Positions 15,721 through 17,485 of a stretch of DNA of 64,000 bases are shown piece after piece; within the stretch, counting starts at the first letter, position 1; every line of letters begins with the position of its first letter. The notes below the pieces were generated by a model. The model was not told the DNA's origin, did no database searches, and saw nothing but the letters and a program-made list of their open reading frames with translations. The translations under genes were made by a program, and so were the position numbers. The DNA is from Natronococcus sp. A-GB7 (GTDB taxonomy: Archaea; Halobacteriota; Halobacteria; Halobacteriales; Natrialbaceae): positions 1 through 64,000 of the forward strand of contig NZ_JARUKV010000018.1 in NCBI RefSeq assembly GCF_029688865.1. The letters are read 5' to 3'.

Positions 15721-15762
15721 GGGGACCAGCGGCGAACGTAGGGCCGTGTGCCTGGTGAACTA

Positions 15763-15812
15763 CCCCACCCTACTCGCTCACCGCTGACGCGGTTCGCTCC
15801 TTGAGGGTGGGG
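15763..15812 (-). ncRNA. Putative omega RNA (reRNA) scaffold hairpin at the 3' end of tnpB
   Basis: A 9-bp perfect stem (15763-15771 with 15804-15812) encloses a second perfect hairpin ACCGC-TGAC-GCGGT (15780-15793). It overlaps the last codons of tnpB, where guide RNAs of TnpB are known to be processed. The guide would lie just beyond, on the minus strand from about 15754 downward. RNA identity is inferred from position and structure. Confidence 0.55.
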
Positions 15813-16999
15813 CTTCCTGTCTCCACGACGCGCTTTGCAGATACAGGTGTATCCGAAGGGAGCGCAGTCTCCACAGGCGTTGATTCGGAGTGTCCCACTC
15901 CTACTTCTTCGAGACCGCGAGAAAGGATGTTCCACGACGCATTCGCGTCTCTGTTCGCTTCAAATCCACACGAGGGGCACGAGTGTTCGCGGACCCACAG
16001 CGGTTTGTCCGTCCCCGTTCCGCACGACGCACACTCTTTGGTCGTGCCTCGAGGGTCGACGGCGACGAAAAGTGTTCCTTCGCGTTCACACTTGTATTCG
16101 AGCATTCGGAGGAACGTTCCCCACGAGGCTCCGGCACGGTTTCGAGAGTTGCCCGGTAGTTCGACCAGCCCTTTCGCGTCCAAGTCCTCGACGGCCACCA
16201 AGTCGTACTCGCGGGCGTAGTAGTTCGACAACTTGTGGAGGAAATCTCGACGTTTACGTTTCAGGTCGGCGTGGCGTCGGGCGACCGTCTTGCGCTGTTG
16301 TTCCCAGTTGTTCGAGCCGTGTGCCTTCCGTGAGAGGTTGCGCTGTGCGCGTTCCAATCGTTCGCGCTCGTCGGAGAAGTCTGGCGACTCGACAGCGGTT
16401 CCGTCCATATCATGTGCGTACTTCAGGATACCAACGTCAATTCCGACGACTCGCACTGGATTCTCCGGCTTCTCGGGAGTGTCTTTATCGACGTCGATAC
16501 CGAAGGTAGCGAACCACTCGCCCGTGGGTTCCTGTTTGACCGTGACCTGTTTGATGCTCGCGTTCTCGGGGATGTCTCGATGGAGGTGAATCGGAATCTC
16601 ACCGATTTTGCTCAACCACAGCATAGGCCGACCACTCGTATTCTTGAGTTTGAAGCCGGACTGGTTGTAGGTGAGCGAGCGATACTCCCGAGGTGGTTTC
16701 CACTTGAGCATCCCTACGGCGCGTCCGTTCTCCTTCTGTGCTTTGAGCGTGGAGAGATTGTCGTAGACGCGCTTGACGACCATCTGCAACACTTTCGAGT
16801 GAACATCGTTCAGGTCACTCCACCACGATTTGAGGGCGGGGATCGTTCCCTGTACCTTGTAACGTGCTGGAATCTCGTCTGCTTCGTTGAGTTTGTAGAG
16901 GACGTGATTATAGAGTTGCCTACAAGTATCGACATGATGCAGAAGCGTCTCGGTGAGGGCTTCCGGTGGGTCGAGTCGATACTTGTAGTTGTAGTGCAT
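15770..16999 (-). CDS. tnpB: TnpB RNA-guided nuclease
   Basis: A complete 409-residue IS605-family TnpB. The N-terminal helical/WED part begins HYNYKYRLDP. The RuvC-like catalytic residues are all present: D188 (VVGIDVGI), E271 (LVAVEDLD) and D351 (EANRDANASWN). The zinc ribbon has C323-x2-C326 and C341-x2-C344. TnpB proteins cut DNA next to a short target-adjacent motif, guided by an RNA made from the element's right end. The start codon directly abuts the stop of the small ORF upstream (TAG then ATG), so translation is probably coupled. No frameshift or missing residue is seen, so it should be active. Confidence 0.93.
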   Translation of the reverse strand: MHYNYKYRLDPPEALTETLLHHVDTCRQLYNHVLYKLNEADEIPARYKVQGTIPALKSWWSDLNDVHSKVLQMVVKRVYDNLSTLKAQKENGRAVGMLKWKPPREYRSLTYNQSGFKLKNTSGRPMLWLSKIGEIPIHLHRDIPENASIKQVTVKQEPTGEWFATFGIDVDKDTPEKPENPVRVVGIDVGILKYAHDMDGTAVESPDFSDERERLERAQRNLSRKAHGSNNWEQQRKTVARRHADLKRKRRDFLHKLSNYYAREYDLVAVEDLDAKGLVELPGNSRNRAGASWGTFLRMLEYKCEREGTLFVAVDPRGTTKECASCGTGTDKPLWVREHSCPSCGFEANRDANASWNILSRGLEEVGVGHSESTPVETALPSDTPVSAKRVVETGSPTLKERTASAVSE

Positions 17000-17125
17000 C
17001 TATGACTCTCGTTCCTCGATAAGTTCGTCCAATTTCTCTTGAACGAACGAGGAAAGGTTCAGGTGATTGTCCTGAATCCACTCCTCTTGGTCATCGCGGA
17101 TGGAGATGTTTTTGCGAGTCGCCAC
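17000..17125 (-). CDS. 41-residue ribbon-helix-helix-like protein of the TnpB element
   Basis: A GTG-started frame reading ATRKNISIRDDQEEWIQDN, then HLNLSSFVQEKLDELIEERES. A basic strand, a turn and two amphipathic helices match the CopG/Arc ribbon-helix-helix pattern. The stop codon directly adjoins the tnpB start. A TATA-like box at 17148-17155 lies 23-30 bases before the GTG, as expected for a leaderless transcript, and this decides the start. Such a protein could repress the element promoter. Similar short ORFs beside haloarchaeal tnpB genes are easily missed by length filters. Confidence 0.7.
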   Translation of the reverse strand: MATRKNISIRDDQEEWIQDNHLNLSSFVQEKLDELIEERES

Positions 17126-17147
17126 AACACATCATACACAAACTACA

Positions 17148-17155
17148 CAAATAAG
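17148..17155 (-). promoter_or_regulatory. TATA-like box for the RHH-tnpB pair
   Basis: On the minus strand it reads CTTATTTG, 23-30 bases before the GTG of the small RHH-like gene. It is the only AT-rich octamer in the correct window. Confidence 0.55.
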
Positions 17156-17223
17156 AGTTGTGATTGCGTGGGCCTGTGGGCCGATCGTCGCGGAGTGTTT
17201 GGGGGACGATGACGGCGCTGTAT

Positions 17224-17282
17224 CCCCTCCCTACTGCGCTACTCGGTCGCTTCGCTCCCTGTGTTGCTCCTTGAGGAAGGGG
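17224..17282. repeat. Left-end hairpin of the TnpB element
   Basis: CCCCTCC (17224-17230) can pair with GGAAGGGG (17275-17282) with one bulge. The region repeats elements of the right end (CTACT, GCTCCTTGAGG, GGGG), as expected of subterminal hairpins in this transposon family. Confidence 0.55.
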
Positions 17283-17485
17283 ACTTAGCGCCTGAATACA
17301 GTTAACTTCGTCGGCGATGCTCGCTCGCTCGAGCGGGTTTCGGTCCCAATCGAGCGCGTCTTACCCTCGACCGGGCGCGACAGCCCCTCGAGTCCCCGAC
17401 GGGGCGACGACCGCTGTTCTCCGAACGGGACGCCGTCGTCGGCTGCACCGACGGATTCAAGTCCGATTGTGCTAACGCAACCACA

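Follow-up and report, generated by a model that had tools for sequence, protein, structure and literature searches.

TnpB-only elements of the IS200/IS605 family (IS1341-type) are abundant in haloarchaea, and their movement without a linked TnpA transposase is an open puzzle in the passages of Dyall-Smith et al. (2011; PMC3119063) that deal with them. The puzzle returns in a 64,000-nucleotide stretch of Natronococcus sp. A-GB7 (contig NZ_JARUKV010000018.1, positions 1 to 64,000; hereafter the window), where tnpB is preceded by a gene for a small ribbon-helix-helix (RHH)-like protein. How does such an element move, and what does the small gene do? We consider it probable that it is a TnpA-less IS1341-type element moved in trans, and that RHH represses the transcript on which its own gene, tnpB and the guide RNA lie. 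The sequence provides exact ends, a TTAA target, IS608-type signals, an intact TnpB, a structured right end and an RHH gene under selection.

Ends of the element and its target motif

The element and its terminal features are as follows.

15755 to 17301, minus strand: whole element of 1547 bp, left end at 17301 and right end at 15755, without target duplication, as given by the empty site
17302 to 17305, minus strand: target motif, or target-adjacent motif (TAM), TTAA adjoining the left end, from the empty site and from TTAN in 119 parsed left ends
17283 to 17286, minus strand: left-end guide AAGT (IS608-type GL), directly 5' of the left hairpin; its final T complements the final A of TTAA
17224 to 17282, minus strand: left-end subterminal hairpin CCCCTTCC...GGGAGGGG, seen in the sequence and kept in relatives
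15813 to 15816, minus strand: right-end guide GAAG (GR) 5' of the right hairpin, with the cleavage site TCAC at 15755-15758, from copy comparison
15763 to 15812, minus strand: right-end hairpin CCCCACCC...GGGTGGGG, with covarying pairs in helix 5

Empty sites in relatives had been proposed as the means of fixing the boundaries, and an exact one was present in a genome of the same genus (G004, locus L041). The joined flanks of the element matched it at 43 of 44 bases across the junction. The empty site reads AGCATCGCCAACGAAGTTAA^CAGGCACACGGCCCTACGTT, with GAAGTTAA^CAGGCACACGG as the core around the junction. A second relative (G005, locus L045) likewise lacked the insertion and was identical to the joined flanks at 33 of 44 bases. 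The original prediction had placed the element at 15755-17296; its right end held, and its left end has to be moved by 5 bp to 17301. The empty site also showed that the element is inserted on the 3' side of a short target motif, which is not duplicated, as is characteristic of IS200/IS605, and both ends carry the subterminal hairpins of this family with short guide sequences at the 5' foot. TTCAG, which had been proposed as the target motif, lies inside the left end of the element and was discarded in favour of TTAN (here TTAA).

In IS608, the cleavage site and guide are TTAC/AAAG at the left end and TCAA/GAAT at the right end. The present element resembles IS608 and ISDra2 in that each hairpin is preceded by a guide of four bases that pairs with the cleavage site, here TTAA/AAGT and TCAC/GAAG. 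In the 119 left ends that were parsed, the target read TTAN, and the last base of the AAGN' before the left hairpin complemented N in 107 of them (the parser demanded TTA, hence only N and N' were free to vary in this count). All four bases occurred at N. Unlike in IS608 and ISDra2, the last target base thus spans all four bases within one TnpB subfamily, with the guide changing to match. The rule was also kept in 5/5 TnpA-bearing relatives and in 14/17 relatives with a DUF2080-like gene. At the right end, the guide AAG was found in 117 of 123 parsed copies, and TTCAC terminated all 123.

Two side observations concern the ends. Paired short hairpins (for example AGAAATC..GATTTCT with GAACGAGACGC..GCGTCTCGT) are inserted at L009, L012, L025, L106 and other loci, and in 41 of 104 RHH elements, either close to the left end or within the tnpB 3' end and guide RNA, where they keep the frame; the copy in the window has none. 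On contig 22 of the same genome (6451-6571; L306) lies a right end 80% identical to that in the window, with no intact tnpB of this family nearby. It is a relic or a short non-autonomous copy.

TnpB and the right-end RNA

The nuclease gene and the predicted guide RNA were located as follows.

15770 to 16999, minus strand: tnpB, 409 aa, with RuvC residues D188/E271/D351 and zinc ribbon C323/C326/C341/C344
15755 to 15881, minus strand: predicted guide-RNA (omegaRNA) scaffold over the tnpB 3' end, from a fold z-score of -3.26 and compensatory changes
15735 to 15754, minus strand: predicted guide segment CAGGCACACGGCCCTACGTT (flanking DNA as guide); the same 20-mer stands 3' of TTAA in the G004 empty site

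The product of tnpB matched NF040570 (guided_TnpB) with 296 bits, the OrfB_IS605 and TNB domains, and the solved ISDra2 TnpB (E 8e-34). Its acidic RuvC triad and the four zinc-binding cysteines are all in place, as the original prediction had stated, and TnpB is apparently intact. The genome (4.88 Mb) contains 25 matches to the model of the TnpB zinc-ribbon (TNB) domain. With ISDra2 TnpB-omegaRNA (PDB 8bf8 and 8h1j; PMC10097598) the system shares the fold, the catalytic residues, a right-end RNA over tnpB and the equivalence of Q72 with Q80. It differs from ISDra2 in its target, TTAN compared with TTGAT, and in its RHH partner.

In ISDra2 TnpB, Q80 reads the A at position -2 of the TAM, and Y52 and S56 contact the base at -1 (PMC10097598). 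Q80 aligns with Q72 of the window TnpB, which was invariant in 130/130 sequences, and S56 aligns with residue 50. Residue 50 was R with G as the last target base, Q with C or A, and I with T. Residue 88 tracked N in 94/94 RHH elements and in 24/24 others, and in all relatives whose left end was consistent the two residues together followed the last TTAN base. Few clades underlie these associations, with 3-6 changes on the trees. We regard residues 50 and 88 as a possible TAM-specificity code; that residue 88 alone sets the TAM was likewise kept only as a lead. With four target classes occurring naturally within a single TnpB subfamily, these elements offer a natural experiment on TAM recognition.

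The terminal 136 nt folded at -58.7 kcal/mol, at the z-score given above relative to shuffled sequences. When 26 diverse copies were compared, 98.1% of cells paired, and both sides of a pair had changed in 41 cells compared with 12.8 in shuffles; sliding the partners abolished pairing. The hairpins that had been described over the tnpB 3' end are therefore borne out by covariation. The proposed start of the predicted guide at 15754 on the minus strand is likewise supported. A second target for the guide segment was sought in the same genome and none was found. An Rfam search with the right-end RNA returned no relevant family, including the families of the Halobacterium sense overlapping transcript RNAs (sotRNAs; RF02656, RF02657; PMC8303175). 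Unmatched by these two models, the right end in the window nevertheless resembles sotRNAs in that the predicted RNA has the sense orientation and comes from the 3' end of tnpB. Halobacterium right-end RNAs are processed out of a longer precursor (PMC8303175), so that one promoter could supply both the nuclease and the guide in the present element.

These results bear on the idea that the locus is a degenerate remnant whose RHH open reading frame (ORF) and right-end structure are functionless passengers. It would fit with the failure to recognize a cognate TnpA in the assembly. We give it very little credence: TnpB is intact, the right-end structure covaries, the guide and target signals are preserved, and RHH is under purifying selection throughout the family (see below).

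The slot before tnpB and mobility of the element

No TnpA ORF was present within 15755-17301, so the element can be classified only as a non-autonomous member of the IS1341 type. In common with the haloarchaeal IS1341-type elements (PMC3119063) it has a TnpB without TnpA, subterminal palindromes, a short target motif, no target duplication and TnpA-bearing relatives. It differs from them in that a dedicated RHH-like gene, with a promoter of its own, stands where TnpA would be, an arrangement that the passages on these elements do not describe. That RHH occupies the position where relatives carry TnpA was a point absent from the original prediction.

We examined this slot at 67 loci of the TnpB subfamily (at least 57% identity). 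It held RHH at 33 loci, a DUF2080-like gene at 25, the Y1 transposase TnpA at seven and nothing recognized at two, and never two of these together; the RHH count is inflated, part of the loci having been collected through the RHH search. The DUF2080-like protein (47-50 aa) matched Pfam DUF2080 at E 0.0004, just under the cut-off, hence its name. Its ORFs, with an AbrB-like pattern (GNGAHVLVPKRW), occur in the slot at ~25 loci (e.g. L053, L055, L106 and L112), and several have a palindrome of their own before the start, such as GTATCTACTTCGTAGATAC in L112 and L124. The literature searched, which lay outside subscription journals and preprints, described neither an RHH nor a DUF2080-like partner for TnpB, nor a three-way module swap.

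The element ends are common to the RHH, DUF2080-like and TnpA groups. We conclude that the RHH elements, which lack TnpA, belong to a family that also includes autonomous elements. Two of them (L223 and L226) are 99.5% identical and lie at unrelated sites, which indicates recent movement without a TnpA of their own.

An element without TnpA, present as a single copy at this site, might instead be a TnpB locus that has been domesticated to serve the host, as an RNA-guided regulator like TldR. However, the three catalytic acidic residues whose loss marks TldR are all present. The insertion is also absent from relatives at the same site, and near-identical RHH elements occur elsewhere in the family at unrelated sites. 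Taken together, the last two findings identify a mobile element, and we think domestication very improbable.

The RHH-like protein, its candidate operator and a model of control

The small gene and its upstream region contain the following features.

17000 to 17125, minus strand: RHH-like protein, 41 aa, GTG start, under purifying selection; its TAG stop touches the tnpB ATG
17149 to 17154, minus strand: TTATTT as TATA-like box, 24-29 nt upstream of the start codon, from the sequence and the class consensus; a leaderless promoter is likely
17126 to 17151, minus strand: candidate RHH operator TTTGTGTAG-TTTGTGTAT-GATGTGTT, repeats spaced by 9 bp up to the start codon, from the sequence

The ratio of non-synonymous to synonymous changes (pN/pS) of the ORF was 0.07-0.18 within four classes, indicating that it encodes a real protein. 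Relatives were found in 30 of 100 genomes in a first set and in 152 of 392 in a larger one. At 139 of 155 non-redundant loci tnpB followed directly downstream; among the remainder, several loci are truncated at the end of a contig. In two public records that we inspected the protein was a 'hypothetical protein' or unannotated. Its pattern consists of the invariant I7 and R10, the exposed strand positions 6, 8 and 10, and the turn HLNLSSFV. The 41-residue ORF abutting tnpB and its TATA-like box are thus as originally predicted, with the RHH label drawn from this pattern and weak CcdA matches.

We named the RHH classes by the exposed residues 6, 8 and 10, for which contact with DNA is predicted. 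The upstream repeats are TGTGTA/TACACA in class NSR, TGCATA/TACGTA in TSR, GTGCATA in TTR and GCGCATA in NTR. A period of 9 was the best of the offsets 4-15 in all four classes, and it outscored every one of 500 column shuffles for NSR, NTR and TTR. Nearest-neighbour prediction of the class reached 0.96 from positions -30..-1 and 0.75 from -48..-31 (identical RHHs left out), and 0.46 from -78..-49 (identical RHHs kept in). For the ISIRDD group, whose two classes are set by N or T at residue 6, the operator predicted the class at 0.97 compared with 0.58 for the adjacent stretch. TGTGTA-type repeats were present at 39/39 N6 loci and at 2/23 T6 loci. The stretch proposed for RHH binding (17120-17160) does contain the repeats. 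A repeated operator that lies at the protein's own promoter and follows its contact residues is typical of the RHH superfamily, and this putative site supports the view of RHH as a probable regulator.

RHH may alternatively be a transposition accessory that binds the element ends and aids or guides TnpA in trans. It takes the place of TnpA in elements that are mobile. Yet the candidate sites occur at the promoter only, the TGTGTA motif being found nowhere else in 33 elements of the window's class, and the left-end guide varies with the target base and with TnpB rather than with the RHH type. We judge this role quite improbable.

On the TnpB tree, the RHH class switched 32 times (about 30) and the target base changed 8 times in the same count (range 3-8). 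In the pair L227/L196, identity was 0.91 left of the operator and 0.23 within it, then 0.77 over RHH and 0.91 over the initial 400 bp of tnpB. RHH and its operator behave as an exchangeable cassette, and the left-end guide and the target motif remain associated with TnpB. The operator diverges in excess between classes and is conserved within each of them, which argues for function.

These switches also bear on whether RHH could be a type II antitoxin-like protein that directly binds and neutralizes TnpB. Its small gene lies just 5' in a coupled operon, as in ccdAB-type pairs, and CcdA was its best weak Pfam match. We nevertheless hold direct neutralization to be highly unlikely. The 41-aa protein stops at the predicted second helix, with nothing past the RHH-like core and hence no C-terminal tail or separate toxin-binding region. 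Its types combine freely with different TnpBs, unlike co-evolving toxin-antitoxin pairs, and no TnpB residue follows the RHH type closely (maximum mutual information 0.62, compared with 1.54 for the target base).

We therefore return to mobilization in trans with autorepression by RHH. In this model, an autonomous relative that shares these ends would provide the Y1 transposase that moves the element in trans. TnpB, guided by sequence taken from the right flank, would cut the empty TTAA site (predicted cut: TTAA, then CAGGCACACGGC), and the element would thereby be kept or restored. An RHH dimer would bind the 9-bp repeats between the TATA box and the start codon and repress the one transcript that spans RHH, tnpB and the guide, so that nuclease levels stay low. 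RHH binding, guide production, cleavage of the empty site and movement in trans are all steps that we infer. The protein resembles RHH autorepressors (MetJ/Arc/CopG and the CcdA N-terminal domain) in its predicted short strand with alternating exposed residues, its two predicted helices and the candidate repeated sites overlapping its own promoter. Unlike them, it falls under the Pfam cut-offs and has an RNA-guided nuclease as its partner.

Several points weigh against this model. Repression by RHH is deduced from sequence, as is the case as a whole. Pfam matches to CcdA were obtained for 22 of 42 RHH members, the best at E 0.0047 and below the cut-off; a PDB search with the RHH profile gave no match, and HHalign of the RHH alignment to CopG gave no significant one. 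The AlphaFold monomer shows residues 11-40 as one helix (predicted template modelling score 0.45). Period 9 was not significant in the TSR class (58/500 shuffles), and parsing failed for 34 of 153 left ends. The operator adjoins the RHH gene, and recombination alone would keep them linked, which explains part of their association. Present mobility in this genome is unproven, no cognate TnpA having been recognized in the assembly, where the two Y1 proteins have other ends.

More tentatively, the RHH-operator classes might be immunity groups among co-resident TnpB elements, akin to the immunity regions of phage repressors. If so, a resident RHH would silence an incoming element of the same class, and selection would favour exchange to a new class. 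Such groups, which we regard as a doubtful proposition, would account for the many class switches relative to the few target-base changes.

The analysis supplies the exact ends, the rule tying the target motif to the left-end guide, and a conserved, unannotated candidate regulator. With these, control of an RNA-guided nuclease can be put to the test in Haloferax, Halobacterium and similar genetic models.

A second, more distant RHH family (MERKQITIREDQ...; MERKQITIREDQVEWIDENHINLSSLVRG) was found at five loci (L033 and L035-L038), mainly in the same genus and not linked to this TnpB. No RHH was found in phage records. Three viral contigs in IMG/VR (L388, L389 and L390) encode an RHH relative with 70% identity, and the element may thus also ride on haloviruses.
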